Assembly: GCA_028283855.1 (NCBI GenBank)
Contig: JAPWJX010000003.1
Coordinates: forward strand, 1,116,001-1,180,000
Length of the DNA stretch: 64,000 nt
Direction: 5' to 3'
From: Verrucomicrobium sp.
Lineage (GTDB): Bacteria; Verrucomicrobiota; Verrucomicrobiia; Methylacidiphilales; GAS474
Part shown: one piece after another, positions 28,624 through 50,083 of the stretch
Position numbering within the stretch: position 1 is the stretch's first letter
How the letters are laid out: every line of letters starts with the position of its first letter
Notes under the pieces: model-generated
Database searches by the model: none
The model's input: only the letters and a program-made list of their open reading frames with translations
Told to the model about the DNA's origin: nothing
Position numbers and translations under genes: made by a program

Positions 28624-30563
28624 ATGCCCTGGTCGACCTCACCGCGGCTATAGCCCGCACCTGGGCTCCTCCTCCTGCCTGGACTCTTTCCGAATGGGCG
28701 GACGCACGGCGCCGACTTTCCAGCGAGGCATCAGCGGAGCCGGGCCGCTGGCGCACCAGCCGCGCCGAATATGCCCGCGGGATGATGGATGCCGTTACCG
28801 ATCCGAAAAACGAGCGCGTCGTCTTCATGACCTCCGCCCAGGTGGGCAAGACGGAGATCCTGCTCAACGTCTCCGGCTACCACATCGACTTCGACCCGTC
28901 CCCGCTCATGCTCCTCCAGCCGACGGTTCAGATGGCCGAGGCGTTCAGTGAGGATCGACTCAAGCCGATGCTCCGGGACACGCCAGCGCTGCGGGGAAAG
29001 GTGAAGGAAGGGCGCTCGCGTGGGGCTGGCAGCACCAAGCTTCACAAGATATTTCACGGTGGCCACCTCACGATGGCTGGGGCGAACTCCCCGGCGACCC
29101 TGGCATCTCGGCCAATCCGTGTTCTTCTAATGGACGAGGTCGACCGATACCCGGCCAGCGCGGGAGAGGAGGGCGACCCGGTCAAGCTCGCCATCAAGCG
29201 CACCAACAATTTCTGGAATCGCCGCATCGTCATGGCGTCGACGCCTACGGTGAAGGGATTCTCCCGCATCGAGAAGGAGTTCGAGCTTTCGGACAAGCGG
29301 TTCTTCTACGTCCCTTGTCCTCATTGCCAGGAAGAACAGCGTCTCCAATGGGGCAACGTCACCTGGCCCGAAGGAAGGCCCAAGGAGGCCGTGCTACGAT
29401 GCGTATCGTGCAGTGGTAGCATCACCAACGCGCAGAAAAACGTGGCGGTAAGCCGCGGGCGATGGATCGCCACCGCTCCTTTCAACGGGATCGCGGGCTT
29501 CCACCTCAACGAACTCTACTCGCCCTGGCGCACCTTGGCCCAGATCGCCGAGGACTACCTAGTAGCGAAGGACGACCCAGCCCTCTACCAGGTGTGGGTC
29601 AACACCTCCCTGGGCGAAACCTACGACGACACGGGCGAAAAGATCGACGAGCATGACCTTTTGAGCCGGTGCGAGCCATGGCCGGAGGGAATCGACGTTC
29701 CTGCCCGCGGCCTCGTCCTGACCTGCGGCGTCGATACGCAGCCGGACCGCCTGGAAGTCGAAGTAGTCGCCTGGGCGGGCGGAGAGGAAAGCTGGAGCAT
29801 CGACTACCACGTCATCCACGGCGACCCCGAGATCAAGGAAGGGGCCCCGGGTTCTCCATGGAGCGACCTGACCGACCACATCCGACGGAAATGGAAGCAC
29901 GAGAGCGGTCTGGAAGTAGCTATCGAGTCCACCTGCATCGACTCCGGCGGTCACAACACCCAGGCAGTCTACGAATACGTCAAAAAGCACTCCGGGGAGC
30001 GCGTTTTCGCCATCAAAGGCCGTGGCGGGGAGGGGATTCCCATCGTCGGCAATCCATCCCGAAAGCGGGCTGGCAAAAAGACAAAGAGGCCCGTCGACGT
30101 CTACATCGTCGGTGTAGACCAGGCCAAGGCCATCATCTACAAGCGCCTGCAAATGGAGGCTCCTGGGCCGGGTTATCCGCACTTTCCGGCCGGGCGATCC
30201 GCCGACTACTTCCGGGGCCTCACATGCGAGAAAATGCGAGTGCGCTACGTCAAAGGCATGCCAAAGCGGGAGTGGTTCAAGCCCGACAAGGCCAGGAACG
30301 AACCCCTCGACTGCCGCGTCTACGCCTTCGCCGCCCTCATCCTCCGCGCCCCGCAGTTCGACAAGGTGGCCTGGCGCATGAGACAGCGCGCCCAGGAGGT
30401 CGCGGCGAGGCCTGCGCTAAAAGTAGTTTCCGTAAAAAACGAGGAAGAGGAGCCGGAAATCCGACCAGTAGAAAGCGAGCAACCTCCTCCCGATAGTGCG
30501 GGGAAGCCGAAGCCCCGGCGCCGCAGGCGAGGGGGAGGCGGCTGGATCAATTCATGGCGATGA
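28620..30563 (+). CDS. terminase large subunit (lambda GpA family)
   Basis: 647 aa (lambda gpA is 641). Walker A-like TSAQVGKTE near residue 73, Walker B VLLMDEVDRYP near residue 167, a zinc site CPHCQEE...CVSC, and the nuclease part with VLTCGVDTQPDRLEVEVVAW and the DSGGHNTQAVYEYV stretch. It packages DNA by ATP hydrolysis and cuts at cos. The extreme C-terminus codes the first copy of the 18-bp boundary repeat. GTG start. Confidence 0.93.
   Translation: MNALVDLTAAIARTWAPPPAWTLSEWADARRRLSSEASAEPGRWRTSRAEYARGMMDAVTDPKNERVVFMTSAQVGKTEILLNVSGYHIDFDPSPLMLLQPTVQMAEAFSEDRLKPMLRDTPALRGKVKEGRSRGAGSTKLHKIFHGGHLTMAGANSPATLASRPIRVLLMDEVDRYPASAGEEGDPVKLAIKRTNNFWNRRIVMASTPTVKGFSRIEKEFELSDKRFFYVPCPHCQEEQRLQWGNVTWPEGRPKEAVLRCVSCSGSITNAQKNVAVSRGRWIATAPFNGIAGFHLNELYSPWRTLAQIAEDYLVAKDDPALYQVWVNTSLGETYDDTGEKIDEHDLLSRCEPWPEGIDVPARGLVLTCGVDTQPDRLEVEVVAWAGGEESWSIDYHVIHGDPEIKEGAPGSPWSDLTDHIRRKWKHESGLEVAIESTCIDSGGHNTQAVYEYVKKHSGERVFAIKGRGGEGIPIVGNPSRKRAGKKTKRPVDVYIVGVDQAKAIIYKRLQMEAPGPGYPHFPAGRSADYFRGLTCEKMRVRYVKGMPKREWFKPDKARNEPLDCRVYAFAALILRAPQFDKVAWRMRQRAQEVAARPALKVVSVKNEEEEPEIRPVESEQPPPDSAGKPKPRRRRRGGGGWINSWR
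30456..30473 (+). repeat. module-boundary repeat, copy 1
   Basis: GGAAATCCGACCAGTAGA, an exact 18-bp match to copies at 34161, 38659 and 44062. This copy lies inside the terminase coding region (it encodes EIRPV), about 90 bp before its stop, at the packaging/head joint. Confidence 0.85.
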
Positions 30564-31060
30564 CCCGATACACCTCCGGCGAGACGATCAAGGTCTGCCG
30601 CTCTGCTGCTCCCTGCTCGGCGATCACCGCCGTCTTCGCCGGAGCCTCGAAGCACACCGTTGCAGCGACCGCCAGCCAGGACGGCTGGTTCGAGATCATC
30701 GCCGACACCTCCGGCTGGGCCGCCGGTAACTACCTCATGGAGGTGATGCAGGCGACCGACTCCGAGAAAAAGGTCATCCTGCGCGAAACCTTCGTCCTCC
30801 AGCAGGCCGCGGGAGACATTCCCGTGGGCGCGGAGGTCCGGTCCGAGGCCGAAATCGCCGTCGCCAACCTTAAGGCCATGCTGGGCCTAGGCGGCGCAGC
30901 CACGCCGATGGTGCGCCGCTACCGCATCAACAACCGCGAGTTGGAAAACTATCCCATCGCCGACCTGCGCGCCCTCCTGGCCGAGTGGCGGGGAATCCTC
31001 GCCGAAGAACGCCGCCGCGCCAACGGCGGACGCGCTCCCCGGATCGTCTTCACCGTCTAG
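30554..31060 (+). CDS. gpW-like head-tail joining protein with extra N-terminal domain
   Basis: 168 aa. The C-terminal 50 residues (MVRRYRINNRELENYPIADLRALLAEWRGILAEERRRA) are the compact gpW-type head-completion domain often found between terminase and portal. The first 115 residues form a separate beta-rich domain (IKVCRSAAPCSAITAVFAGASKHTVAATASQDGWFEII). In many phages these are two genes, so this looks like a fusion. Overlaps the terminase stop by 10 nt. Confidence 0.7.
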   Translation: MAMTRYTSGETIKVCRSAAPCSAITAVFAGASKHTVAATASQDGWFEIIADTSGWAAGNYLMEVMQATDSEKKVILRETFVLQQAAGDIPVGAEVRSEAEIAVANLKAMLGLGGAATPMVRRYRINNRELENYPIADLRALLAEWRGILAEERRRANGGRAPRIVFTV

Positions 31061-31063
31061 CGC

Positions 31064-32629
31064 ATGAACATCCGCAACCTTCCGGCATCTGGCCGAACCC
31101 CTTCCTTCCAGCGAACGGCCATTCCCACGAATCCCGGATTCCCCCGCCCGCGCAACGAGCCAGGCCAGAAGAAAAAGGCCGCCGTCAACGTGCGGAGCAT
31201 CATCCAGGCAGCCCGCACCGGCCGCCTGGAGTCGTCCTGGCGCTCCACTCCCTACACCGCTGACGACCTGATCTACCAGGCGTGGACGGCCACCACCGCC
31301 CGCGCCCGCCAGGCTTACGAGGAGTTCGACCACTATCGTAAATTCGCCCAGCTGGTCCGCGCCAACGTCGTCGGCGAAAACGGGATGAACCTCAACGCGC
31401 AGATCAGGGACCCCTCCGGCTCTGTCGATACCCGAGCCATCCGCGCCATCGAGGGCGCCTACTACGACTTCTCCAAGAAGGGGAACTTCGACGTCAGCGG
31501 CACACTTTCCCGCGCCGACGCCGAGCGCATGGCGCTGAACACCTGGGCGACCGACGGCGAGGTCATCGTCGTGAAGCGTTACGGCAAACAGTTTCCCCAC
31601 GGCATCGCCTTCCAGTTCATCGACCCGGTACGCCTCGACCCGATCCACTACATGCGATTGCCGAACGGCAACCACATCCGGCACGGCATCGAGATGGACG
31701 AGGACAACCGCCCCCTGCGCTACTACTTCCGCAAGTCGGACGAGCGCGGATGCGGATACCTTGCTGGCTACGGTCCTAACGACTTCACCGTCGTCGACGC
31801 CCGGGACGTGATCCATTGGTTCGTGCCGGAGAAGCCGGGCCAAAAGCGCGGAATCTGCCCGGGACGCACCGCCCTCTCCCGCATGCGGATGCTATCCGGC
31901 TTTGAGGACGCGGCGATCATCAATGCCCGAATTGGATCGTCTAAGATGGGCTTCTTCCACAACCCCGATGCGGAAGGAGGCGCAGACGACGAGGATCTTG
32001 TGATCGACGCCGACCCTGGCTCCATGGAAGACATCGGCAACCGGGAACTGGTGAAGTGGGACCCGCAGTTTCCTGACGCCGCCATCGAAACCTTCATCCG
32101 CACAATCCTGCGGAGCATCGGCGCGGGCCTTTCCGTCTCCTACCACAACCTCTCCAACGATCTCACCAGCGTCAACTTCTCCTCCATCCGGCAAGGTACG
32201 CTCGACGAGCGGAGCGTCTGGCGCAGCCTCCAAGACTCCTTCGTGGAGGGCGTCTGCCGCCCCATGTTCGAGGCGTGGTTGGAGTTCTCCGTCCTGGTCA
32301 CCGGCTCCATCCTCATCAACGAAAAGCCTCTGCGTGTCGATTCGCTCGAAAAATACAAGGCCGTCGACTTCATAGGCACCCGCTGGGCGTGGATCGATCC
32401 AAGCTCCGATCAATCTGCTAACGAGCGGGCAGTGTCCCAGGGCTTCAAAAGCCGCTCCCAGGTCATTCGGGAAACCAGCAACCGCGATCCCGAAGAGGTT
32501 TTTGCCGAAATCGAGGCCGAGAACAAGGAACTTGCCCGTCGCGGAATTATCCCAGCCCTTCCCCCCGGGGTCACGCTGCCGCCGGAAGAGGAAGCGCCTG
32601 CCCCTGCGGGCGAGCCTATCCAAAAATGA
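31064..32629 (+). CDS. portal protein (lambda GpB family)
   Basis: 521 aa (lambda gpB is 533). ARQAYEEFDHYRKFAQLVRANVVGENGMNLNAQI, NTWATDGEVIVVKRYG, DARDVIHWFVPEKPGQKRGICPGRTAL and NFSSIRQGTLDERSVWRSLQDSF are recognisable family blocks. It forms the dodecameric ring at the capsid vertex. Pro/Glu-rich C-terminus. It is followed not by the head protease but by a lysis cassette. Confidence 0.9.
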   Translation: MNIRNLPASGRTPSFQRTAIPTNPGFPRPRNEPGQKKKAAVNVRSIIQAARTGRLESSWRSTPYTADDLIYQAWTATTARARQAYEEFDHYRKFAQLVRANVVGENGMNLNAQIRDPSGSVDTRAIRAIEGAYYDFSKKGNFDVSGTLSRADAERMALNTWATDGEVIVVKRYGKQFPHGIAFQFIDPVRLDPIHYMRLPNGNHIRHGIEMDEDNRPLRYYFRKSDERGCGYLAGYGPNDFTVVDARDVIHWFVPEKPGQKRGICPGRTALSRMRMLSGFEDAAIINARIGSSKMGFFHNPDAEGGADDEDLVIDADPGSMEDIGNRELVKWDPQFPDAAIETFIRTILRSIGAGLSVSYHNLSNDLTSVNFSSIRQGTLDERSVWRSLQDSFVEGVCRPMFEAWLEFSVLVTGSILINEKPLRVDSLEKYKAVDFIGTRWAWIDPSSDQSANERAVSQGFKSRSQVIRETSNRDPEEVFAEIEAENKELARRGIIPALPPGVTLPPEEEAPAPAGEPIQK

Positions 32630-33195
32630 CCCGTTTTGCTTTTCTTGCCGTCCTCCTCCTGGCCGGATGCGCTGGGACCACTCGATACTACGCTCCCGTC
32701 TCCACGGGGGAGGTGAGGAATGGTCTCCGGGAAACCCGAGTCGACCTCGCCCAGGCCCAGCAGACCGCCTCGGCCATCGCCAAACGGGGCACCCGGGCCG
32801 GAAGTGCCGAGTCCGCCGTCTTACAGTCCACTTTGGCCGCAGCCCAGCGCCATGCCGCCGAGTCGGATGCCGCTCTTGCCGCCCATGACCTCGCGGCGGG
32901 CAAGCAAGTCGCCAAGGTCAACTCCGACCTGACCAAGCAGGCAAAGCAAATTGCAGCCGGTGACGCAAAACGGAAGCACTGGCTCTATTTTTCGCTCTTC
33001 GGCTTCGTTCTGGCCGCCGTTATGGCGATCATCGGTCCGTGGCTGGCCGCAGCTACCGGATACGGGGCATTCCTATCGTCCATCCCAATCCTGGGCGGCA
33101 TTATTGGAACCGCCGAGCGCGTCGTCGCCGCGTTTCTAGGATTCGTCGTGTTCTCGGCCATTGCCGGACTACTCCACCTCGTCGGCGTTTTATGA
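32626..33195 (+). CDS. lipoprotein with coiled coil and two C-terminal membrane helices (lysis-cassette member)
   Basis: 189 aa. Signal peptide with lipobox LLLAGC at residues 10-15; a long Ala/Gln/Lys-rich helix (about 30-115); then two hydrophobic helices, YFSLFGFVLAAVMAIIGPWL and VVAAFLGFVVFSAIAGLLHLV. A lipid-anchored N-terminus together with C-terminal transmembrane helices would span from outer or inner leaflet, suggesting a spanin-like role. It is coupled to a holin-like gene and a lysozyme. Not a standard Rz/Rz1 pair, so the role is inferred. Confidence 0.55.
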   Translation: MTRFAFLAVLLLAGCAGTTRYYAPVSTGEVRNGLRETRVDLAQAQQTASAIAKRGTRAGSAESAVLQSTLAAAQRHAAESDAALAAHDLAAGKQVAKVNSDLTKQAKQIAAGDAKRKHWLYFSLFGFVLAAVMAIIGPWLAAATGYGAFLSSIPILGGIIGTAERVVAAFLGFVVFSAIAGLLHLVGVL

Positions 33196-33518
33196 AATCG
33201 CCAATCGACCATGTCCGCCGATACCAGGAAACCTATCTTCACCTTCCCGGCGTCATCGGATTCCTGGTGGCGATGGCCTTTCTATTCCGAGCCCTTACAG
33301 GTCGTGCCGACCGGGAGGACTTGGGCGGAATCGTCGGCCTTGGCGTTCAGGCTCTCACCCTCGTCATCGCCAGCGCCTTCACCATGCTGGCAAAGCGGCG
33401 GCTATTCTCCCCCCTGACCGATGATGAGACGCGGACGCTTCCCCGTTGGCGCGTCCTCCTCGATTCATGCGAGACCATCTCCATTTTCTTGTCGGCGCTT
33501 TGGGCTTTGGCTCATTGA
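33192..33518 (+). CDS. holin-like membrane protein
   Basis: 108 aa. Hydrophobic segments at about 20-35 (GVIGFLVAMAFLFRAL), 46-65 (GIVGLGVQALTLVIASAFTML) and 92-108 (ETISIFLSALWAL) with a basic loop between. The size, position between a lipoprotein and an endolysin, and 52-nt overlap with the lysozyme gene support a holin. No family signature seen. Confidence 0.6.
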   Translation: MKSPIDHVRRYQETYLHLPGVIGFLVAMAFLFRALTGRADREDLGGIVGLGVQALTLVIASAFTMLAKRRLFSPLTDDETRTLPRWRVLLDSCETISIFLSALWALAH

Positions 33519-34153
33519 TCGCCGCGGCGACGGCCGCCCTAGTCGAGTTGCCATCCCCTCCCGCGCTATCAAAGGCAGGGCACCAGCTCATACTGGACTA
33601 CGAGGTCGGCGGTGGCAGATCCTACTATGACCGCTTCCTTCAGCGGCCCAGCTGGCCAGGGGAAAGCTCTGGCGTAACCATCGGCGTCGGCTACGACCTG
33701 TCCACCGTCGAACCGGACATCATCCGGGAGGACTGGCACGACATTCCCTCCAATCCGCTGGATCGCCTCGTCGCCACCCAGCCTTTCCACGGGCCTTCCG
33801 CGAAGCCCAAGGCCGCCCAGGTCGCCGACATCCTAGTTTCCTGGTCCCTGGCCCTCGACGTATTTGACCGCGTCGACGTCACGCGGTTCTGGTTCGTAAC
33901 CCGCCGGGCGTTCCCCGGATTCGACCGCCTTCGGCCAAACGCGCAGGCCGCTCTCGTCTCGCTTGTCTTCAACCGCGGCCCGGGAATGTCGGGTCCAGCC
34001 CGGCGAGAGATGCGGGCAATCCGCGACGCCGTGCCACGTGAGGACTATGACGAGATTGCCAGGCAGATGCGGACGATGAAGCGGCTCTGGCCGGATTCCG
34101 CCGGTCTACGGGTCCGCCGTGATGCCGAGGCCTCGCTGGTTCTGACGCCATAG
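33467..34153 (+). CDS. endolysin (GH24-like lysozyme fold) with N-terminal signal-anchor
   Basis: 228 aa from the ATG at 33467. LHFLVGALGFGSLIAAATAALVEL is a weakly hydrophobic signal or signal-anchor-release helix. Then LILDYEVGGGRSYYD holds the candidate catalytic Glu, GVTIGVGYDLS is the T4-lysozyme-like GIGYG region, AQAALVSLVFNRGPG the ALVSFxFNxG helix, and LRVRRDAEASLVL the closing RR-x-x-E-A helix. It should cut peptidoglycan after membrane release. Confidence 0.75.
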   Translation: MRDHLHFLVGALGFGSLIAAATAALVELPSPPALSKAGHQLILDYEVGGGRSYYDRFLQRPSWPGESSGVTIGVGYDLSTVEPDIIREDWHDIPSNPLDRLVATQPFHGPSAKPKAAQVADILVSWSLALDVFDRVDVTRFWFVTRRAFPGFDRLRPNAQAALVSLVFNRGPGMSGPARREMRAIRDAVPREDYDEIARQMRTMKRLWPDSAGLRVRRDAEASLVLTP

Positions 34154-34160
34154 CCGATTC

Positions 34161-34178
34161 GGAAATCCGACCAGTAGA
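34161..34178 (+). repeat. module-boundary repeat, copy 2
   Basis: GGAAATCCGACCAGTAGA, starting 7 nt after the lysozyme TAG and 35 nt before the capsid-gene start. Exact 18-bp match to the other three plus-strand copies. Confidence 0.9.
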
Positions 34179-34212
34179 GCCGTTTTTAGAATCCCAGCAC
34201 ACTCCGGCGCAA

Positions 34213-36069
34213 ATGAAGCCGAAGATCGAGGAACTCATCGGGAAGCAGCTCCATCGCTCCGCCACCTTGAGCGTGGCCGACGCGGGCAAGCGCACCGTTG
34301 AACTGGCGTTCTCTTCGGACAAGCCGGTCGAGCAATGGCCTGGCGTGTTGGAGGTTCTATCCCACGACTCCGGCGCATGTGACCTCTCTCGCCTCAACGA
34401 CGGGGCAAACATCCTTTTCAACCACGACCCCGATAGCCCACTTGGCGTGGTTGAAGAAGCCCGCATCGACAAGGATAGAGTTGGCCGCGCCCTGGTGCGG
34501 TTCGGCAACTCTCCCGAAGCCGTTGCGAAATGGCAGGACGTTCAAGACGGGATTCTGACCAAGGTATCGGTCGGCTACCGCATCTTAGAGCTTAAACTCA
34601 CGGAGGAACGTGAGGGCGGCCCCGACGTCTACACCGTCACCAAGTGGGAGCCTTACGAAATCTCAATCGTCACGATTCCGGCCGACATGTCCGTCGGCGT
34701 CGGTCGGTCGATGTCCCACCAACCCACTCAATCTACCCAAAAACCCATGAACACCGAACCCAAGAACGAAGTCGAACAGAAGCCCACGCCGACCATCTCC
34801 ATCGAGCAGGAACGCGCCGCCATCCGCAAGGAGGAGAACGACCGCGTCCGCAGCATCACCGCGCTGGGCAAGAAATTCGGCCTCGAAAAGGAGGCCACCG
34901 ATCTACTGACGGAAGGTGCCAGCATCGACCAGGCCCGCGAAGCCATCTACGAGGCCCTGGAAAAGCGTAACACCAAGGTCACCGACGCGAACAAGCCCGT
35001 CGGCTTGAGCGAGCGGGAGGCCAAGGATTTCTCTTTCGTCAAGGCGTTGCGAGTCCTCGCTCATCCGACGGATCACAAGTTCCGGGAAGAAGCAGCCTTC
35101 GAGCTTGAAGTCTGCGAAGCCGCAGCGAAGAACATGAGCCACCGCTCCGTAAGCGGCCTTCTGGTTCCAATCGACGTGCTTCGTGTGGTTGGTCAGCGCG
35201 CTGCTTCGGGCAATGTCATCTCCGAAAAGTCTGGCACCGGCTACACCGGAACGGGAGCCAATGCCATTCAGACTTCGCTTCTGGCGGATTCCTTCATCGG
35301 AATGCTGAAAAACCACGCCACGATCATGAACCTGGCCACCGATCTCTCCGGTTTGGTCGGTAATGTGGACATCCCCAAGCAGTCCGGCCAGATTGGTGGT
35401 TATTGGGTGGGTGAAGATGACTCGGCCCCGACCGACTCCCTCGGATTTGGCCTTGTCTCCCTGCGTCCGAAGACTGTTGCCGCCAAGGCGATCATTACCC
35501 GGCAAATGCTTAAGCAGCCTTCCTTAGGCGTAGAAAGCCTGGTTCGCACTGATCTCTCCCGCGGCATCGGCCTTGCCATCGATATTGCGGCTTATTACGG
35601 AGCAGGTACGGGCAATGCCCCGACTGGCCTCTCTCATGTTGCCGGGATCGGCTCGGTCAATCTGGCCGCAGCGGGCGCGCCGACCTTTGCGGAACTCGTG
35701 CAGTGCGAGACCGCGATGGCGTCCGCTAACGCCGACATTGGCCGCATCAGCTGGGTCATTAATCCGGCCCAGCGCGGTTATGCAAAGACGACCCGTCGTC
35801 TGGCGACTGCCACCGACTCGGCGACCCTGTGGGAACCTGGCAACACCCTGAATGGCTACCAGGTCCAGGTTACCAACCAGATCACCGCGGGCGATCTGTT
35901 CTTCGGAAACTTCGCCGACTTCCTCATCGGTCTGTGGGGCGGCCTTGAACTTACCGTCGATCCCTACTCCGGCAGCGACAAGGGCCGCTTGCAGATCGTC
36001 GGGTTCCAGGATGTCGACTTTGCGGTGCGCCATCCCGAGTCCTTCGTCATGGCCACCCACACGGCCTAA
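34213..36069 (+). CDS. fused prohead protease and major capsid protein
   Basis: 618 aa. Residues 1-165 are an S78-type (HK97) prohead protease: His in ANILFNHDPDSPLG and Ser in ILTKVSVGYRILE, with a later EISIVTIPAD strand. Residues 180-280 are charged and helical like a scaffold (QERAAIRKEENDRVRSITALGKKFGLEKEA). Residues 290-618 are an HK97-fold capsid protein (SGLLVPIDVLRVVGQRAASGN ... VDIPKQSGQIGGYWVGEDDSAPTDS). A GTG or ATG inside (for example 34747, MNTEPKNEVEQ) could give scaffold-capsid alone. Fusion saves separate genes; cleavage in cis is likely. Confidence 0.9.
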   Translation: MKPKIEELIGKQLHRSATLSVADAGKRTVELAFSSDKPVEQWPGVLEVLSHDSGACDLSRLNDGANILFNHDPDSPLGVVEEARIDKDRVGRALVRFGNSPEAVAKWQDVQDGILTKVSVGYRILELKLTEEREGGPDVYTVTKWEPYEISIVTIPADMSVGVGRSMSHQPTQSTQKPMNTEPKNEVEQKPTPTISIEQERAAIRKEENDRVRSITALGKKFGLEKEATDLLTEGASIDQAREAIYEALEKRNTKVTDANKPVGLSEREAKDFSFVKALRVLAHPTDHKFREEAAFELEVCEAAAKNMSHRSVSGLLVPIDVLRVVGQRAASGNVISEKSGTGYTGTGANAIQTSLLADSFIGMLKNHATIMNLATDLSGLVGNVDIPKQSGQIGGYWVGEDDSAPTDSLGFGLVSLRPKTVAAKAIITRQMLKQPSLGVESLVRTDLSRGIGLAIDIAAYYGAGTGNAPTGLSHVAGIGSVNLAAAGAPTFAELVQCETAMASANADIGRISWVINPAQRGYAKTTRRLATATDSATLWEPGNTLNGYQVQVTNQITAGDLFFGNFADFLIGLWGGLELTVDPYSGSDKGRLQIVGFQDVDFAVRHPESFVMATHTA

Positions 36070-36076
36070 CAAACTT

Positions 36077-36106
36077 GGGGCGGGAAGTCTGGGGGCTTCC
36101 CGCCCC
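36077..36106 (+). terminator. strong hairpin after the capsid gene
   Basis: GGGGCGGGAAG (36077-36087) and CTTCCCGCCCC (36096-36106) form a perfect 11-bp stem with an 8-nt loop, 8 nt after the capsid stop. Only a short T-containing tail follows (TCTATC), so it may slow polymerase or protect the capsid mRNA 3' end rather than fully stop transcription. Confidence 0.65.
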
Positions 36107-36124
36107 TCTATCACGTAATCCATC

Positions 36125-36391
36125 ATGAAGATCAAAGTCCTAAAATCCATCCGCATCGGCGGCGTGCATCACTCGGTCAACCAGGTTGCAGAGGTCAACG
36201 AGAGCCTGGGCCGGGAACTCATCAACCGAAGCGCCGCCGCGCATCACATCGAGCCCTCCACTCCGACCGACCCCAAAGGTGAGCAGGAAGACGACGAGGA
36301 AATCGAGGGCGAAACTTCCGAAGAGAGCGAGCAGGAACAGGCGCAAGCCGAAGAACCCTCCGCTCCAGCGAAGGGCAAAGGTAAAAAGTAA
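36125..36391 (+). CDS. hypothetical head-region protein with acidic disordered tail
   Basis: 88 aa. A compact N-terminal half (MKIKVLKSIRIGGVHHSVNQVAEVNESLGRELINRSAAAHHI) is a pattern of small phage head accessory proteins, followed by an acidic Glu-rich stretch ending in GKGKGKK. Location just after the capsid gene fits a head accessory. Confidence 0.6.
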   Translation: MKIKVLKSIRIGGVHHSVNQVAEVNESLGRELINRSAAAHHIEPSTPTDPKGEQEDDEEIEGETSEESEQEQAQAEEPSAPAKGKGKK

Positions 36392-36618: not shown

Positions 36619-36691
36619 AAACGCCGTGTGTGTCTTTTGGTTGCTGTGGAACCTGCGGGCACTTATGGCCCTATGTAGCGCCTTGAGGTAA
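36602..36691 (+). CDS. possible 29-aa peptide
   Basis: An ATG inside the end of the previous gene opens MAEVIENAVCVFWLLWNLRALMALCSALR, a short hydrophobic peptide ending in TAA 7 nt before the next start. It would couple the two genes, but it has no other support. Confidence 0.25.
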   Translation: MAEVIENAVCVFWLLWNLRALMALCSALR

Positions 36692-41984: not shown

Positions 41985-42320
41985 ATGCCAGCCGCATCCT
42001 ACGACATTACCATCGAGCGCGGAGCCGACTACTCCCTTCCACTCGTATTTAAGGACGGGAATGGAACTCCTCTGAACATCATCGCAGCCACCTTTAAGGC
42101 GCAGATTCGGGAAGCCGCGGAGGGAAACGTAATTCTTGCAACCTTCACCGTCACCGTTGACGGGGAGACCCCTGGGCGAGTCGTGATTTCCCTGACGGGA
42201 TCGCAGACCGCCGATCTCGATTTCGCCAGTGGCGTCTACGATCTTTTCATGTCTAACGCCGGGATCAGCTACCGAATGGTCGCCGGGAACGTCACCATAA
42301 CCCCCACAGTTACCCGCTAG
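41985..42320 (+). CDS. beta-rich fibre/baseplate-associated protein
   Basis: 111 aa. ASYDITIERGADYSLPLVFKDGNGTPLNI and an alternating strand pattern throughout (VVISLTGSQTADLDFASGVYDLFMSN) resemble beta-sandwich linkers placed between baseplate and fibre in other phages. Located between the two fibre genes. Confidence 0.55.
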   Translation: MPAASYDITIERGADYSLPLVFKDGNGTPLNIIAATFKAQIREAAEGNVILATFTVTVDGETPGRVVISLTGSQTADLDFASGVYDLFMSNAGISYRMVAGNVTITPTVTR

Positions 42321-42322
42321 CC

Positions 42323-43576
42323 ATGGCAGACATTGAAGTGATCGTCACCCCTCCGGCGCAGGTCGTCGTGGAGGTGACGCCCGGCTATCCCGAGGCTGCT
42401 ACGGCGACGGCGGCATCCAACGCATCCGCAACTTCCGCTGCGGCTGCTGCGGTGTCGGAGGCGAATGCCGCTGCGTCGGCGGCCACAGCAACTACGGAGG
42501 CCGGTATTGCTACCGGTAAGGCCTCTGATTCCGCAACTTCCGCTGCGGCTGCTGCGGCGTCGGAGGCGAATGCCGCTGCGTCGGCGGCCACAGCAACTAC
42601 GGAGGCCGGTATTGCTACCGGTAAGGCCTCTGATTCCGCAACTTCCGCTGCGGCTGCTGCGGCGTCGGAGGCGAATGCCGCTGCGTCGGCGGCCACAGCA
42701 ACTACGGAGGCCGGTATTGCTACCGGTAAGGCCTCTGATTCCGCAACTTCCGCTGCGGCTGCTGCGGTGTCGGAGGCGAATGCCGCTGCGTCGGCTACTG
42801 CTGCTTCAGGTTCGGCTACGGCCGCCGCGGCTTCCGCCGCCTCCATCGCCAACCAGCAGTTACACGGTCAATGCCGCCTAGATTTTGTCAGCTCGACGCA
42901 GGTTAAGCTTTCCCCGTTTAATGGAAACCGAATCATTATCGACAACGTGGCGCAGCAAATCCCCGCCACGGCCCCGACTCTTTCCAATTCCGGCATAGGG
43001 AATTTGACGGCCCGATACGTGTATGTGGGGATGGTGTCCGGGGTTATGACTCTTTCCTCCTCAACTACAGGGTATGCCACAGACCCTCGGAACGGGGTGC
43101 TCGTTTTAAGCGGTGATGCCACGAAAACGTTTGTTGGGATGGTCGGCACGGACTCCTCTGGTCTCTTTCAGGACAGCGTTACCGCTCGGCTCGTAAAGAG
43201 TTTCTTTAATCAGAAACGGATGGGGTTGTATGCCTATTTCACATACTCAACCTCATCCACTTCGTGGGTTGAATTATCTTCGTCTTCCCGAGTCTATTTT
43301 CTTGGGGACGGGAAATCGGGGGATTCGTTGGCCGCCGCGACCATAGAATATATTCAAACCGCGAATGACGTTTTCTGTTATTTCGCAATGGGCATTAACG
43401 GCGCTACGAATGGAGGCCCAACAACCTGTAAGCAATATACCGCCAGGGAAATAACCCAGCCTGTAAATCAGGTCCAGGCAAGCAGCACGGGCATTAATTA
43501 CTTTTCGGCGTTCGGGTATGTGGCGTCCGGCTCATATTCTGGATGGGGCACCGTTTGGGGAAGCACCATGGTTTAA
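42323..43576 (+). CDS. second tail fibre with near-identical 35-residue Ala-rich repeats
   Basis: 417 aa. Residues 30-170 contain four copies of a 35-residue unit (A/S-rich with E-x-G-I-x-T-G-K), which should form a helical or coiled shaft. The C-terminal 240 residues are beta-rich and Ser/Gly/Thr-rich (TLSSSTTGYATDPRNGVLVLSGDATKTFVG) and probably form the trimeric tip. AT content rises towards the end, suggesting exchange of the host-range part. Confidence 0.75.
   Translation: MADIEVIVTPPAQVVVEVTPGYPEAATATAASNASATSAAAAAVSEANAAASAATATTEAGIATGKASDSATSAAAAAASEANAAASAATATTEAGIATGKASDSATSAAAAAASEANAAASAATATTEAGIATGKASDSATSAAAAAVSEANAAASATAASGSATAAAASAASIANQQLHGQCRLDFVSSTQVKLSPFNGNRIIIDNVAQQIPATAPTLSNSGIGNLTARYVYVGMVSGVMTLSSSTTGYATDPRNGVLVLSGDATKTFVGMVGTDSSGLFQDSVTARLVKSFFNQKRMGLYAYFTYSTSSTSWVELSSSSRVYFLGDGKSGDSLAAATIEYIQTANDVFCYFAMGINGATNGGPTTCKQYTAREITQPVNQVQASSTGINYFSAFGYVASGSYSGWGTVWGSTMV
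42428..42835 (+). repeat. 105-bp tandem repeats in the fibre gene
   Basis: About four units with a 105-bp period (unit borders near 42428, 42533, 42638, 42743). The inner two are identical as far as I compared; the outer two differ by single bases such as GCGGTGTCG versus GCGGCGTCG. The period is a multiple of three, so unit gain or loss keeps the frame. Confidence 0.9.
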
Positions 43577-43579
43577 AAA

Positions 43580-44056
43580 ATGAATATTATTCAAAAATCA
43601 ATCGGCCCCTCCTTCGCGGAAGAAGTTCTGAAATCGTCCGTTTCCGGGTGCCCCTTCACCTGGGACGCAAACGGCGTTTACTATGCGGACGGCGCTCTCA
43701 CAGCCGATCAGGTTACGGCTTTGAACGCGCTTGTTTCGGCCCACGACTCCACTAAAAAATCCGCCCAGCAAGTCTACGATGAGGCCGTTGCCGCCGGGTT
43801 CGACACGGGCCGTGGCTACACCCTGGCTTGCGATCAATCCACGCAGTCTCTCCTCGCTAATACCGTATCCCTTCTTAACGTCTCTCTGCTCGTCGCTACG
43901 GACGATGCAGCTAGGGCGGCCATCCTCAATTCCGTGCAGACGATCCAGGACAACGCCGGGACGACGCACTCTGAAAAGACCTCCGACCTGATTCCGGTCC
44001 TGGTCGCCTACGGGAACTACTGCAAGCAGCTCCTCTACGCATTACAGGGCTCCTAG
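43580..44056 (+). CDS. fibre-associated hypothetical protein
   Basis: 158 aa. SFAEEVLKSSVSGCPFTWDANGVYYADGALTADQVTALNALVSAHD followed by a long helical part. It starts 3 nt after the second fibre, where phages usually place the matching assembly factor, but the sequence is unlike the first assembly protein. AT-richer than its neighbours. Confidence 0.55.
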   Translation: MNIIQKSIGPSFAEEVLKSSVSGCPFTWDANGVYYADGALTADQVTALNALVSAHDSTKKSAQQVYDEAVAAGFDTGRGYTLACDQSTQSLLANTVSLLNVSLLVATDDAARAAILNSVQTIQDNAGTTHSEKTSDLIPVLVAYGNYCKQLLYALQGS

Positions 44057-44061: not shown

Positions 44062-44079
44062 GGAAATCCGACCAGTAGA
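44062..44079 (+). repeat. module-boundary repeat, copy 4
   Basis: GGAAATCCGACCAGTAGA beginning 5 nt after the previous stop (TAGAGCGC precedes it, almost as at copy 3) and 49 nt before the sheath gene. Exact 18-bp match to the other plus-strand copies. Confidence 0.9.
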
Positions 44080-44128
44080 GGAGTATGGCGGGTGGCTCTT
44101 AAATCGGTGGAAAACCACCACATCCACC

Positions 44129-45631
44129 ATGCCCGAACAATTTCTCCACGGCGTCGAAGTCGTCGAAGTCTCCGACGGAACTAGCGCCATCAGTACGGTA
44201 AAATCCTCCGTAATCGGCCTGATCGGCACTGCCCCCGACTCGCAGGAAGCTGTAACGGCCTCCATGGCGACCGGAAGCGTCGGCGACAACACCGCCCTGA
44301 CCTGGACGAGCAAGCTTGCCGGGGCTCTGGGGAACGACATCAGCGTCTCCATGCGTTCGCCAGGAACGGCCTCTGCACCTCTCTCTATCACAGTTTCCGG
44401 CAAGGCGATCATTGTCTCCCTTGCCACCAGCGCGGCCAAGGCGATCACCACTACCGCCACGCTGCTGAAGACTGCCATCGCGGCAAACGCTTCGGCTAAC
44501 GCCTTGGTAACGGTGGCATCTACCGGAGTTTCTACCGGAGCGGGCGTCCTGGGCTACCAGGCCACCAGCTACCTCTCTGGCGGCCTTGACGAGGCATTCC
44601 CGCTGAACACCCCGGTCCTCATTGCCGGTTCGGCGACCGCCGCGGCCGCCCTGGGCTCGAATGGCACCTTGCCCGCCGCCATCGACGACATCTTCGACCA
44701 GGTCGGAGCCGCCATCGTGGTCGTGCGCGTCGAGGAGGGGGATGACGCCGCGGAGACCGCCGCCAACATCGTCGGGTCGGCGGCCGCCTCCTCCGGCGTC
44801 TACGCCTTCCTGGGGGCCGAAAGCGCGGTCGGCGTCGCCCCGCGCATCCTGGTTGCCCCGGAGTTCACGGACGATCCCACCAACGGCGTTGTCCAGGAAC
44901 TCTTGATCGTGGCGGCCCGCCTACGTGCAGTGGTCATCGCCGACGGGCCGAGCATGACCGACTCGGACGCCGTGCAGTACATCCAGAATTTCGGCTCCGA
45001 CCGACTCTACGTGGTCGACCCCGCCGTCAAGGTCGTTGTGGACGGGGTGACCGTCATCCGGCCCGCCTCGGCCCGCGTGGCGGGCATCATCTCCCTGGGG
45101 GACAACGCACGCGGCTTCTGGTGGAGCCCTTCCAACCAGGAGATCGCCGGGATTGTGGGCACCGAGCGCCCGATCAACTTCTCCCTGGGCGATCCCAACA
45201 GCCAAGCGAACCTCCTTAACGAGAGCAACATCGCCACCATCATCCGCCAGGACGGCTTCCGCCTGTGGGGAAACCGTACGACCTCTAGTGATCCGAAATA
45301 CGCCTTCCTCTGCGTCCGCCGCACGGCGGACATCATCATCGACTCAATCCAGCGAGCCCACTTGTGGGCAATCGACCGGCCGATCACAAAGACCTACGTC
45401 AAGGATGTCACCGAGCGGGTCACCGCCTACCTTCGGGATCTCAAGAATCAGGGAGCGATCATCGACGGAAAGTGCTGGGCTGACCCGGACCTCAACACGC
45501 CCGCGAACATCTCCAACGGTGAGGTGTTCTTCGACTTCGACTTCGCGCCGACCTACCCGGCGGAGCACATCACCTTCCGGGTCTCGATTAACAACGATTA
45601 CCTTAGCGAGATCGTCTCGACCGAGTCCTAA
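44129..45631 (+). CDS. contractile tail sheath protein
   Basis: 500 aa. LHGVEVVEVSDGTSAISTVKSSVIGLIGTAPD is the P2 gpFI/Mu gpL sheath start; later GFWWSPSNQEIAGIVGTERPINFSLGDPNSQANLLNESNIATIIRQDGFRLWGNRTTSSDPKYAFLCVRRTADII and ISNGEVFFDFDFAPTYPAEHITFRV are the conserved core. The presence of a sheath proves a myovirus morphology. Confidence 0.95.
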   Translation: MPEQFLHGVEVVEVSDGTSAISTVKSSVIGLIGTAPDSQEAVTASMATGSVGDNTALTWTSKLAGALGNDISVSMRSPGTASAPLSITVSGKAIIVSLATSAAKAITTTATLLKTAIAANASANALVTVASTGVSTGAGVLGYQATSYLSGGLDEAFPLNTPVLIAGSATAAAALGSNGTLPAAIDDIFDQVGAAIVVVRVEEGDDAAETAANIVGSAAASSGVYAFLGAESAVGVAPRILVAPEFTDDPTNGVVQELLIVAARLRAVVIADGPSMTDSDAVQYIQNFGSDRLYVVDPAVKVVVDGVTVIRPASARVAGIISLGDNARGFWWSPSNQEIAGIVGTERPINFSLGDPNSQANLLNESNIATIIRQDGFRLWGNRTTSSDPKYAFLCVRRTADIIIDSIQRAHLWAIDRPITKTYVKDVTERVTAYLRDLKNQGAIIDGKCWADPDLNTPANISNGEVFFDFDFAPTYPAEHITFRVSINNDYLSEIVSTES

Positions 45632-45655
45632 ACCCACCCTCCACCACATCCACCC

Positions 45656-46165
45656 ATGGCTACCGCAAATCGCATCCTCAAGAACTTCTCTCTCTTCATC
45701 GACGGGAAGGGCTACGCCGGAAACATCGACGAGCTGACGCTTCCGCCGCTGACGACCAAGATGGAAGACTTCCGGGCGGGCGGCATGGATTCGTCCATCG
45801 CCATCGAGATGGGCCAGGAGAAAATGGAGTTTAAGTTCACCCTCTCCGCCTATGAGCCTGCCGCGCTCGCTCTTTGGGGCGTGGGCGAGGGGAGTTCCGT
45901 TCCCTTGGTGGCCCGCGGCGCGGTCCAGAACCTAGACGGAACTGTAGAGCCCGTAATCGTGACCATGCGTGGCACCATCCGCTCCATCGAGCCCGCCGCC
46001 TGGCAGGCTGGCAACAAGTCCTCCGTGCCCTTCACTGTCGACCTCCGCGCCTACAAGTACGAGCAGAACGGCGTGGTCATCCACGACATCGATGTCGTCA
46101 ATATGATTCGGCTAGTCAATGGAGTCGATGCGCTGCAAAGCCAGCGTGACGCGATTGGCACCTAA
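45656..46165 (+). CDS. major tail tube protein (gpFII of P2)
   Basis: 169 aa. ILKNFSLFIDGKGYAGNIDELTLPPLTTKMEDFRAGGMDSSIAIEMGQEKMEFKFTLSAYE is the P2-like tube protein, which forms the inner tube inside the sheath. It follows the sheath gene in the P2 order. Confidence 0.92.
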   Translation: MATANRILKNFSLFIDGKGYAGNIDELTLPPLTTKMEDFRAGGMDSSIAIEMGQEKMEFKFTLSAYEPAALALWGVGEGSSVPLVARGAVQNLDGTVEPVIVTMRGTIRSIEPAAWQAGNKSSVPFTVDLRAYKYEQNGVVIHDIDVVNMIRLVNGVDALQSQRDAIGT

Positions 46166-46177
46166 ACCCCCAATAAA

Positions 46178-46456
46178 ATGAGCAAGAAAATCATCCTGTC
46201 CAAGCCCATCACCGTCTCCGGCACCCTGGTCGACACGCTCGAAATGCGTGAGCCTAGCGTCGGCGATCTTCGCGTGGCCCAAAAGGGCCGCACCCCGGAG
46301 GATGCCCAGCACGTCCTACTTGCCAATCTTCTTCAGATCACGCCGAAGGAGGCGGACTCCCTTTCTCTGGTAGACTATGGCCGTGTTGGTAAAGCCTTTC
46401 AGGAGTACGCCACGGAGGGTGGCGATTTTTTGCCCTCGGAAGAGACGGCCTCCTAA
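46178..46456 (+). CDS. tail assembly chaperone gpE (0-frame product)
   Basis: 92 aa. LSKPITVSGTLVDTLEMREPSVGDLRVAQK...ITPKEADSLSLVDYGRVGKAFQEY is the P2 gpE-like chaperone. Codons 83-85 are GAT TTT TTG, containing the slippery T TTT TTG; most ribosomes continue to the TAA at 46454-46456, a fraction should shift -1. The product chaperones the tape-measure protein encoded next. Confidence 0.85.
   Translation: MSKKIILSKPITVSGTLVDTLEMREPSVGDLRVAQKGRTPEDAQHVLLANLLQITPKEADSLSLVDYGRVGKAFQEYATEGGDFLPSEETAS
46426..46432 (+). promoter_or_regulatory. -1 programmed frameshift slippery site
   Basis: T TTT TTG, in register with the gpE reading frame (X XXY YYZ). Slippage by -1 changes to a frame open for 48 more codons, ending just inside the tape-measure start. 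A downstream stem was not established by eye. Confidence 0.8.
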
Positions 46457-46578
46457 ACGCCGTAATGGCGCTGGCGCTGCACACTCATTGGCAGCCGAGC
46501 GAGATTGATCGGCTCACGGTGCAGGATTTCGCGGACTATCATAAAATTCTGGTGAAAGCCCTCTCCAAGCATGGCTGA
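46432..46578 (+). CDS. frameshift extension of the tail chaperone (gpE')
   Basis: After the -1 shift the frame reads ALGRDGLLNAVMALALHTHWQPSEIDRLTVQDFADYHKIL and ends at TGA 46576-46578. WQPSEID is typical of the P2 gpE' region. The fused chaperone would be about 133 aa. The same frame contains an ATG at 46465, so an independent small protein is formally possible. Confidence 0.75.
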   Translation, partial: ALGRDGLLNAVMALALHTHWQPSEIDRLTVQDFADYHKILVKALSKHG

Positions 46579-48205
46579 AAAACGGTACAAGGGCGTAATC
46601 GAGATCGGTGGGAAGCTCGACGGGAGCATCAAAGCTTCCTTCGATGTCTTGGGCGCGCTGACAAAGAAGTTCTCGGCGAACCTCAAGGAGCTACAGAACC
46701 AGGCCAAGCTCACTAGCGGATTTCTGAACACGAGCTTCGCGAATCTAGCCGGGAAGCAGCTGGATATTCTGAATGCCAAGATTGAGCGCACCAGCCGCTC
46801 CATCAAGGGCCTCTACGCCATTCAGCGAGGCTTTGCCGGGATTGGCAGCGGTCTTTCTCGATTCGGCATCGGAAATGGCTACGTCGCTGCTGCCGCAACA
46901 GCAGGTCTCGGTCTTGGATTCAAGGGAATGCTTCACGCCGAGGCCGAGCAGGAACAGGCCCAGATCGCTCTATCCGTCATGGACCGGAGCAAGGAAAAGG
47001 GAAAGCAAGACCTGGCCTGGATCGACAAATTTGCTTACACGACCCCATTCGAGATTCCAGAGGTGCGGAGCGCCTTCGTTCGCCTGAAAAGCCGCGGGCT
47101 TGATCCCACCAAAGACGATCTACTTAAGACCATTGGCGATGCGGCTTCTGGCAGCGGGCGTAGCATGGATGAGGCCGTGCAGGCTTTCGATGACGCGATG
47201 GTAAACCAGAACCGGATGATCGCCGGTTTTGGCATCAAGGTGATCGAGGAAGGCGTCGGCCAGGGGAAAGCGATGGTCGAGTTTACCAATCATCTCGGTA
47301 ACCAGATGAAGGTCTTGATCGACAAAAACGACATGGAGATGAAGAAGCGCCTTTATCTCGCCATCTGGAAGGATCGCTACGGCGGCCTTATGGCCGAGCA
47401 GATGAGCACCTGGTACGGCATGATCTCCAACCTCAAGGACTACGCCGTTCGCTTCGGCCTGGCTATTATGCAGTCCGGGCCATTTGAGAAGCTGAAGGCC
47501 AGGCTCAAGGAGATTCTGGACGGCATTGAGGCATCCATTAATAACGGAGGGTTTAAAAAGGCCGCGGAGGAATGGGGGCAGAGAATCTCCGATTTGATCG
47601 ACGCGATTTTATCTCTAGGCAAGGCGGTAAATTGGGTCTTCGACCACATCGGCGGATTGAAGGCTGTTTTTTGGGGGCTAGGCATCATCATTGGGTCCTC
47701 TCTTATTGTTAAGATAAGTGGCCTGGTGAAGGGGCTGTGGGAGATTGGTGCCGGTCTGATAAGCGTTTTCAGCGGATCCCGGGTTTTGCTTTCTGCTTTG
47801 GGTCTCCTTGATTGGCCCATTGTTTTGATAACCGGGGCAATCATCGCCTTAGTTGCTGCTATCGACCTCCTAATTTCCAGGTGGGATTCCATCTCTAAAT
47901 TCTTTTCATTGTTTGGAGGCGGAGGGATCGGGCTGCCTGGCCTTTCCTTCGCTGGAGTTGGTTCCTCCGGCACGCCGAATCTACTCGGCTCCAGCATGGA
48001 CTATGTTCCGCCCTCGGCGTCGACAAGCGGCTTCGTGATGGCCCCACCCCCGTCCTCCACCCACAAGGCCATGACCGACAATCGGCAGTACCGGATCACC
48101 ATCAACGCCCAGCCGGGCCAGGACCCCAAGTCCATCGCCGACCTCGTCGTCCAGCGCATGCAGGGTGACGAAGCGGCAAACGCGGCCGGGGCCCTCCACG
48201 ACTAG
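46571..48205 (+). CDS. tail tape-measure protein
   Basis: 544 aa. A long N-terminal helical part (KASFDVLGALTKKFSANLKELQNQAKLTSGF) is followed by the TMP core DLAWIDKFAYTTPFEIPEVRSAFVRLKSRGLDP and membrane-like helices AVFWGLGIIIGSSLIVKISGLV and DWPIVLITGAIIALVAAIDLLI. Length sets tail length; 544 aa is on the short side for myoviruses. The ATG overlaps the gpE' stop. Confidence 0.9.
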   Translation: MAEKRYKGVIEIGGKLDGSIKASFDVLGALTKKFSANLKELQNQAKLTSGFLNTSFANLAGKQLDILNAKIERTSRSIKGLYAIQRGFAGIGSGLSRFGIGNGYVAAAATAGLGLGFKGMLHAEAEQEQAQIALSVMDRSKEKGKQDLAWIDKFAYTTPFEIPEVRSAFVRLKSRGLDPTKDDLLKTIGDAASGSGRSMDEAVQAFDDAMVNQNRMIAGFGIKVIEEGVGQGKAMVEFTNHLGNQMKVLIDKNDMEMKKRLYLAIWKDRYGGLMAEQMSTWYGMISNLKDYAVRFGLAIMQSGPFEKLKARLKEILDGIEASINNGGFKKAAEEWGQRISDLIDAILSLGKAVNWVFDHIGGLKAVFWGLGIIIGSSLIVKISGLVKGLWEIGAGLISVFSGSRVLLSALGLLDWPIVLITGAIIALVAAIDLLISRWDSISKFFSLFGGGGIGLPGLSFAGVGSSGTPNLLGSSMDYVPPSASTSGFVMAPPPSSTHKAMTDNRQYRITINAQPGQDPKSIADLVVQRMQGDEAANAAGALHD

Positions 48206-48208
48206 GTT

Positions 48209-48661
48209 ATGGCAATCGGAACTATCATGATGGCCCTGGGGGCCTTCCGCTTCTCCCTCGACACCGCGGCCTATCAGCGGCTTGAGCGGGAGACCTCCTA
48301 CCGCTGGCCGCAGAGCGAACGCTTCGGGAAGCTGCCTCTCCTGCAAAGCACGGGCCCATCGTCCGACTCGATCACCCTGGAGGGAATCATCTATCCCGGC
48401 TTCAAGGGGAGCGCCACCCAACTCGACCTCCTACGTACCCAGGCCGGTCTTGGCACCAAGCTGACGCTGGTCACGGGGAGGGGTGTTTATCTGGGCCTCT
48501 GGTCTGTCCTCTCCGTCCGCGAGGGGCAGGAATACTTCTTCTCCGACGGCGTGCCTCGCAAGCTCGACTTCACCGTGCAGCTCGTCCAGGCCGACGACCT
48601 AACGGTCAAAATCGCGGGATTCCCCGTATCTGTGGGTGGCCTAATGGGGCTTCTCGTATGA
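48209..48661 (+). CDS. tail protein U (tail terminator/baseplate hub, P2 gpU)
   Basis: 150 aa. GAFRFSLDTAAYQRLERETSYRWPQSERFGKLPLLQSTGPSSDSITLEGIIYPGFKGS is the P2 gpU family signature with W-x-x-x-x-R-x-G-x-x-x-x-Q. It acts at the tail end with gpX and gpD. Order U-X-D matches P2. Confidence 0.88.
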   Translation: MAIGTIMMALGAFRFSLDTAAYQRLERETSYRWPQSERFGKLPLLQSTGPSSDSITLEGIIYPGFKGSATQLDLLRTQAGLGTKLTLVTGRGVYLGLWSVLSVREGQEYFFSDGVPRKLDFTVQLVQADDLTVKIAGFPVSVGGLMGLLV

Positions 48662-48864
48662 CCTACCGCACCAAAGAGGGCGAGACCGTCGATGCCATCT
48701 GCTACCGCTATTACGGCACGACCTACAGCGGCCAGGTGGAGGCCACGCTGGAGTCCAACCGCCCCCTTGACCTCGGCCAATACGTTACGCTCCCTGCCGG
48801 ACTCCTCATCACCCTGCCGGACGTGACGCCGAAAACCCAGGAAGTCGTCCGTCTATTTTCCTGA
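48658..48864 (+). CDS. tail protein X (LysM-like)
   Basis: 68 aa. YRTKEGETVDAICYRYYGTTYSGQVEATLESNRPLDLGQYVTLPAGLLITLPD is the P2 gpX / LysM-like fold that may contact peptidoglycan. Coupled to gpU by ATGA. Confidence 0.9.
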   Translation: MTYRTKEGETVDAICYRYYGTTYSGQVEATLESNRPLDLGQYVTLPAGLLITLPDVTPKTQEVVRLFS

Positions 48865-48867
48865 CGC

Positions 48868-50037
48868 ATGACGCCGGATTTCAAAGTCACCGGCCAGGAA
48901 GGGGATCTGACCGACAACTTCCGGGACCGGCTCATCAGCCTCACCGTCACCGACAACGCGGCGGAGGTCTCCGACGCGCTCGACATCTCCCTCTCCAACG
49001 CAGACCGCCGCCTCATCATCCCGGACAAGGGGGCGATCCTCACCGTCAGCCTGGGCTACACCGGCCAGCTTCGCGTCATGGGGTCTTACATGATCGACGC
49101 GGTGATTCTCTCCGGGCCGCCCGACATGGTTCGCGTACAGGGCAAGGCCGCGCCTTTCACCGGAGCGGCTGGGCAAAAACCGATCCAAAGCCGCAAGACG
49201 CGCTCCTGGTCCGGCATGACAATCGGGGAAATCTTCAAGACTATCGCAAAAGACAACGGCCTCCAGGCGGCCATAGACGACGAGATGGCACAGGTTCCGA
49301 TTCCGCATATCGACCAGTTGGCTGAAAGCGACATGAACCTACTTACCCGTCTATCACGTGAGTACGGAGCCGTCTTCAAGCCCATGATGGGCCGCCTGGT
49401 TTTCTCCAAGCGCGGCACATCAAAGAGCGTGAACGGAAAGAGCCTAAAAGGTATCACCCTCGACCGGGAAGACGTCATCTCCTACCAGGCCACAATTGGC
49501 AGACGCACCCGCAAGGCCACAGTCTCGACCCGCTACCACGACAACAACCTCGGCCAGACCGTGACCCTAACCCGATCTAGCAATGTGGAATCCGTCGTGA
49601 GCGGCAGCTCGGTAACCCCTGCCAGCACTACAAGCATCGACGGCGCAGGTTACGAGGACGATACGACGGACGCTGGCGCGGACTACCAGCATCCTCATCC
49701 CTATCCCGACGCGGCAACGGCCGCGGCGGCCGCCGACTCAATGCTCGATCAATCGGAACGCGGGGAGCACAACATCGAGGTGACGCTGGCAGGGCACCCG
49801 GAGTTCATGGCAGAGGGCACCCTGACCCTGACCGGCGACTTTCCCTCCGCCATCGAAAAGGACTGGATCATCACCGCCGTGCAGCACACCCTGGCGAAAG
49901 ATCGAGGCTACGAGACGAAGGTGATTTCCGAGAAGAAGCGGTCGAAGGAAAAAGCTACGGATGCCACCGCGGACGCTATCAACCTGTCGTCGACGTCGAA
50001 CGTTGAGGGAATCGTCAGCGGCGGATCGACGAATTAA
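48868..50037 (+). CDS. late control / baseplate hub protein D
   Basis: 389 aa. FRDRLISLTVTDNAAEVSDALDISLSNADRRLIIPDKGAILTVSLGYTGQLRVMGSYMIDAV is the gpD hub family (gp27-like), followed by DNGLQAAIDDEMAQVPIPHIDQLAESDMNLLTRLSREYGAVFKP. Last gene of the late operon; it sits at the base of the spike. It ends in a run repeating SNVE-x-[IV]-VSG-[GS]-S twice (residues about 235 and 378). Confidence 0.9.
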   Translation: MTPDFKVTGQEGDLTDNFRDRLISLTVTDNAAEVSDALDISLSNADRRLIIPDKGAILTVSLGYTGQLRVMGSYMIDAVILSGPPDMVRVQGKAAPFTGAAGQKPIQSRKTRSWSGMTIGEIFKTIAKDNGLQAAIDDEMAQVPIPHIDQLAESDMNLLTRLSREYGAVFKPMMGRLVFSKRGTSKSVNGKSLKGITLDREDVISYQATIGRRTRKATVSTRYHDNNLGQTVTLTRSSNVESVVSGSSVTPASTTSIDGAGYEDDTTDAGADYQHPHPYPDAATAAAAADSMLDQSERGEHNIEVTLAGHPEFMAEGTLTLTGDFPSAIEKDWIITAVQHTLAKDRGYETKVISEKKRSKEKATDATADAINLSSTSNVEGIVSGGSTN

Positions 50038-50067
50038 TGGCGGGGTAGCAGGAACCCCCGACATGTT

Positions 50068-50083
50068 CACTGGTCGGATTTCC
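50068..50083 (-). repeat. module-boundary repeat, inverted partial copy 5
   Basis: On the minus strand GGAAATCCGACCAGTG, identical to the other copies over the first 15 bases. It lies in the 45-bp gap between the gpD stop and the convergent integrase stop, at the junction of the tail module and integration module. Confidence 0.7.

Follow-up and report, generated by a model that had tools for sequence, protein, structure and literature searches.

The stretch of DNA analysed here (the window) comprises the 64,000 nucleotides (nt) at positions 1,116,001 to 1,180,000 of contig JAPWJX010000003.1 from Verrucomicrobium sp. It holds a prophage of 39 kb, its head genes of lambda type and its tail genes of P2 type, along which an 18-base-pair (bp) sequence, GGAAATCCGACCAGTAGA, recurs at intervals. 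Besides a tyrosine integrase and a RecT/exonuclease VIII pair, the prophage encodes a terminase and portal of lambda type, a protease-capsid fusion and a contractile tail of P2 type. Four copies of the 18-mer are exact and lie on the + strand, the first of them at 30455, one position before the start given in the initial annotation, which had placed the other three correctly. A fifth copy is inverted and, as had been described, exact over its first 15 bases; the first of these coincides with the final base of the integrase TAG stop. The copies and the gene blocks that they border are the following.

28620..30563, + strand: terminase large subunit (phrog_15, E 4.5e-256); copy 1 codes part of its C-terminal tail (..EIRPVE..)
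30455..30472, + strand: predicted late-promoter element, copy 1; exact 18-mer, predicted driver of the head-tail joining, portal and lysis genes
30554..34153, + strand: predicted late operon 1, with head-tail joining, portal, accessory protein and endolysin genes (PHROG matches)
34161..34178, + strand: predicted late-promoter element, copy 2; exact 18-mer, predicted driver of the protease-capsid gene and the next head and tail genes
34213..38653, + strand: predicted late operon 2, from the protease-capsid fusion to gpV (PHROG matches)
38659..38676, + strand: predicted late-promoter element, copy 3; exact 18-mer, predicted driver of the gpW, J, I and fibre genes
38709..44056, + strand: predicted late operon 3, with gpW, J, I and fibre genes (PHROG matches)
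44062..44079, + strand: predicted late-promoter element, copy 4; exact 18-mer, predicted driver of the sheath, tube, tape-measure and hub genes
44129..50037, + strand: predicted late operon 4, from sheath to hub gpD (PHROG matches)
50066..50083, - strand: partial inverted copy 5; two mismatches, both in the 3' part, and without a good -10

The repeat is well beyond chance, as first claimed: allowing up to three mismatches, five matches to the 18-mer were found in the window vs 0.02 expected. Scatter through the host chromosome was looked for as a refutation, and the whole 2.56-Mb host genome carries the exact 15-mer core at the five window sites only; elsewhere in that genome two further matches, each with two mismatches, are chance-like. 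The exact 18-mer occurs among viral contigs in one unrelated gene only (two contigs), about the chance expectation. The reported spacing of three copies from TAG stops also stands (7, 5 and 5 nt for copies 2, 3 and 4). The copies had further been placed at the joints between phage modules. The four forward copies do head four gene blocks, but copy 1 is not intergenic: it lies within the terminase large-subunit gene, in the final codons, and is read in frame as EIRPVE.

A promoter signature accompanies the element. We scored candidate -10 hexamers downstream of 92 aligned sites from 25 phages, several of the sites being related by descent, against 300 shuffled sets. The mean -10 score peaks sharply at offset 18 after the 19-mer (0.19, vs -4.08 for the best shuffled set), and the best hexamer falls at offsets 17–19 in 51 of the 92 sites, a count that no shuffled set raised above 19. 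The consensus hexamer at offset 18 is nAnAAT, with A at 74% and T at 70% in the two key places. In the window the predicted hexamers are as follows.

30492..30497, + strand: predicted -10 of copy 1, GATAGT; offset 18 after the 19-mer, transcription start expected near 30504
34198..34203, + strand: predicted -10 of copy 2, CACACT, weak; offset 18, ATG at 34213
38697..38702, + strand: predicted -10 of copy 3, TACCCT; offset 19, expected +1 on the gpW GTG at 38709
44099..44104, + strand: predicted -10 of copy 4, TTAAAT; offset 18, sheath ATG at 44129

With the hexamer set at -12 to -7, the element extends from about -49 to -31. This spacing predicts leaders of 3 nt for copy 2, about 18 nt for copy 4 and about 50 nt for copy 1, and a leaderless gpW mRNA for copy 3. 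Intrinsic terminators lie at most 75 nt upstream of 8 of the 92 sites, mostly before sheath, vs 0.27% of random positions. A sequence scan of the + strand between 28.5 and 46 kb detected no consensus sigma-70 promoter.

Relatives, gathered by sheath or capsid protein similarity, were searched for the element as the initial annotation had proposed. The exact sequence is not shared, but each of them carries, at the same operon heads (portal/head-tail joining, capsid, gpW and sheath), a dispersed repeat of its own, for example GGAAAACCCACCAGAGGAA, GGAACGCCCCGCAGAAGAC, GGAAATCCCGCCGACAGAC and GCAAACGCGCACAAGAC. About 20 related phage families have their own version, and element copies are ~97% alike within a phage and ~55% alike between phages; all-against-all matching of 18-mers at 14 of 18 positions proved too noisy for use. 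Across 25 phages, 95 of 96 copies are oriented along transcription. The sole inverted one is copy 5 of the window, which faces into the hub gene, has a degraded 3' part and -10, and is perhaps a relic. The gpW start codon lies 47–51 nt past the element start in nearly all element-bearing loci, and the distance to the start codon varies before the capsid, sheath and head-tail joining genes (overall 45 to 113 nt). Four cultured relatives have one element inside the protease-capsid gene (L254 at 5164, L255 at 5903, L257 at 5261 and L258 at 5377), as if for an extra capsid transcript.

These comparisons bear on two proposals of the initial annotation. The copies might have been recombination linkers for module exchange, as their position at module borders and the differing gene order among relatives that retain the element would allow. 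An element private to each phage, however, could not guide exchange between phages, since at ~55% likeness it offers no shared homology; copy 1, moreover, lies inside a gene. The module-phylogeny check suggested earlier gives exchange units no clear support: congruence within modules (sheath-tube 0.54, W-J 0.47) is not above that between modules (portal-tube 0.89), which is as high or higher. We therefore regard linkers as exceedingly improbable. An RNA element, be it a processing site, a leader hairpin or a translation enhancer, would also be expected upstream of start codons and in the coding direction, but the sites show no excess of RNA structure (mean z -0.23), the distance to the start codon varies where that to the -10 is fixed, and the predicted transcription starts fall downstream of the element. 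A role in RNA, including the processing that had been put forward, is thus scarcely credible.

The prophage also encodes a candidate for the protein that reads the element.

26989..27381, + strand: Mor/C-family late transcription activator, 130 amino acids, candidate binder of the element (PF08765 Mor, phrog_836)

The product of this open reading frame (ORF) matches PF08765 Mor at 27.0 bits vs a cut-off of 24.9 (residues 64–128) and phrog_836, 'late transcriptional activator', at E 5.7e-23 (residues 19–128). It is the sole phrog_836 match in the genome at E <= 1e-8, a threshold at which the activator is in no other genome among 387 of the host's phylum. Presence of the activator goes with presence of the element: at E <= 1e-12 it is found in 19 of 22 element-bearing viral records vs 0 of 16 others (Fisher p 9e-8), and at E <= 1e-5 in 19 of 22 vs 3 of 16 (p 4e-5). 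Element distance correlates with activator distance (Mantel r 0.49, p 0.0005), an association that persists under control for W, J, sheath, V, capsid and terL. The element is also present, each time in its own version, in seven cultured phages that have a related activator (Persinger, Mica, FoX1, PPpW-3, Mano, Alexa and E. coli HeidiAbel_Bas97). In HeidiAbel_Bas97, whose activator is Bas97_0056, copies lie near 2425, 5164, 9466 and 13925, with a partial copy near 39192. Among contigs retrieved via the activator alone, the element is clear in L265 (three copies), with two copies in L262 and one in L268. The window activator alone, used as a query, matched no viral contig, and the activator alignment was too diverse for a scan of the collection. 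An AlphaFold2 model of the protein has a predicted local distance difference test (pLDDT) score of 84, and a Foldseek search of the model against the PDB gave no significant match.

In Mica, FoX1, PPpW-3, Mano and Persinger a further site stands where the activator gene ends, in front of holin and lysin. We also observed that in L257 (42136), L131 (3166) and L130 (2989) the final codons of the activator gene are the element itself (..EIPREE.., ..ENPPED..), so that in several relatives this end of the gene would double as a promoter. The element is absent from a number of related phages and prophages that have a sheath, most of them from Vibrio-type hosts (L073–L077, L083, L084, L153, L156 and L158), and those searched for the activator also lack a strong match to it. 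Late-gene control in these must be achieved in another way. Three element-less records (L022, L044 and L050) have Mor-family matches, some of them stronger to Pfam Mor, and may use a different site.

Repressor-bound sites that halt transcription at the borders of prophage modules, similar to 'stoperators', would also be short, oriented, phage-specific and near gene ends, and an S24-family repressor gene is present at 13930-14490. Such sites would not account for a -10 at fixed offset or for a gpW start at fixed distance; the terminators upstream of some sites mark starts of units, and the element co-occurs with a late activator. We consider repressor sites very unlikely.

Several observations weigh against an activator-dependent promoter read by the Mor-like protein. 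The -10 hexamers in the window are weak (GATAGT, CACACT, TACCCT, TTAAAT), and several of the 92 sites share descent. Three element-bearing records, L027, L067 and L129, have no activator match, though they may be fragments, and two contigs retrieved via the activator, L263 and L267, gave no clear element. Under control for tube (p 0.096) or portal (p 0.054) the Mantel association loses significance. Of the Mor fold, which combines an N-terminal dimerisation part with a C-terminal helix-turn-helix (HTH), a second fold search matched Mu Mor and C (1rr7, 9l0x_I) over the HTH only, with Z 3.2 over 43 residues, a score that many unrelated HTH proteins equal. Finally, two features of a Mu-type late promoter are found here, namely a predicted site upstream of and overlapping the -35 with a -10 at fixed spacing and, by sequence scan, no consensus promoter usable without an activator, but another, a dyad-symmetric activator site, is not: the mean best dyad across 25 families is 3.68 vs 3.61 for shuffles. 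Lacking dyad symmetry, the site points to a variation on the Mu arrangement, not to a copy of it.

Some of this would suit late promoters recognised by another phage factor, such as a sigma factor, an RNA polymerase or a different DNA-binding protein. The promoter evidence names no factor, the element is asymmetric where known Mor/C sites are not, and several small phage genes have no family match. Yet no sigma factor or RNA polymerase match was obtained among the phage proteins scanned (most ORFs, not every small one), the -10 resembles the housekeeping consensus, and both the presence and the divergence of the Mor-like protein go with the element. Recognition by another factor is in our judgement improbable.

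Very probably, then, the 18-mer serves four late promoters of the prophage as the half that binds the activator and replaces the -35. Two options of the initial annotation, a promoter for each sub-operon and a protein-binding site, are well supported (fixed -10 offset, operon-head positions, co-occurrence with the activator) and would merge into one, an activator-dependent late promoter. What the sequence itself shows is the copies with their orientation, the -10 at fixed offset, the activator homologue and its co-occurrence with the element in relatives. From these we infer binding, activation, timing and transcription starts. The phage-encoded Mor/C-family protein would be made before the late phase and would bind the element at about -49 to -31. 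Once bound, it would recruit host RNA polymerase with the housekeeping sigma factor to the weak -10 (nAnAAT) 18–19 nt past the 19-mer. With one copy at the head of each morphogenetic operon, all four operons should switch on together; and because the gpW and capsid start codons lie at or within a few nt of the predicted +1, their mRNAs should be leaderless or nearly so.

Judged from sequence comparison, many myophages have a predicted late-promoter regulon with a Mor/C-like activator, and the version of the site is private to each phage. We hold it an evenly balanced question whether, more broadly, a Mor/C-like branch reads an asymmetric, -35-replacing element, site and activator changing together into private codes (~20 pairs that do not cross-react) and gpW being regularly leaderless. 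The protein family is already known and annotated; its probable sites are not described in the open-licence literature searched, and earlier reports may exist. Most work on Mor and C has so far dealt with Mu. For many myophages, among them cultured ones that infect E. coli, Pseudomonas, Burkholderia, Xanthomonas, Achromobacter and Acinetobacter, the element supplies the sites that the PHROG 'late transcriptional activator' probably binds, and makes their late operons readable from sequence alone. The ~20 diverged activator-site pairs are material for studying joint change in a regulator and its many sites and for the choice of orthogonal promoters, and the predicted leaderless gpW start is directly testable.

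Two copies of a 70-bp segment, the 3' part of tRNA-Ser, bound the prophage.

12398..12467, no strand: attL, 70-bp copy of the tRNA-Ser 3' part, identical to 51386-51455
51386..51455, no strand: attR, within tRNA-Ser (51394-51483, - strand), the duplicate of attL

Just inside attL, at 12557-13139 (- strand), a BrnT-like toxin gene, slightly below the Pfam cut-off, and a small neighbour are perhaps a toxin-antitoxin pair. The early region (18835-20646 and 24046-24828) has three apparent DNA methyltransferase genes, two with PHROG matches and the first recognised by eye. A tail-fibre-like gene (42323-43576) contains a 105-bp tandem repeat at 42425-42795, with 3.5 copies that are 99% alike (35-residue units). 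In the host genome (L012, G000:C3:1019513-1019851) there is a second, distant capsid-like match, perhaps of another prophage.

Among known systems, P2 has late promoters at the same tail-operon heads, activated by Ogr, a zinc-finger protein that binds near -55; no Ogr match was found here among the phage proteins scanned, which cover most of its ORFs. The stoperators of mycobacteriophage L5 are short, asymmetric, oriented intergenic repeats bound by repressor, and the element resembles them in these traits between genes; they lack a -10 at fixed distance, which the element has. Promoters of T7-type phage RNA polymerases are ~18–20 bp long, near-identical within a phage and different between phages, as the element is, but the -10 here is host-type and no phage RNA polymerase is among the proteins scanned.

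The closest comparison is with Mu. The 16-bp element bound by Mu Mor has two 5-bp inverted repeats, is centred at -43.5 and takes the place of a -35 (PMC4287176, PMC4390567), and Mu C acts likewise on the four late promoters of Mu (PMC4287176, PMC4390567, PMC4461284). The present phage differs in being a non-transposing, tyrosine-integrase phage with a lambda-type head, and its element is asymmetric, without inverted repeats, and centred at about -40; its activator is distant in sequence. What it would have in common with Plys, PI, PP and Pmom (C) and with Pm (Mor) is a Mor/C-family activator with several co-regulated late promoters, a site just upstream of and replacing the -35, and a weak -10 downstream. 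The likeness extends to the several relatives in which one site lies where the activator gene ends and the lysis genes follow, since Mu has Plys just after C.

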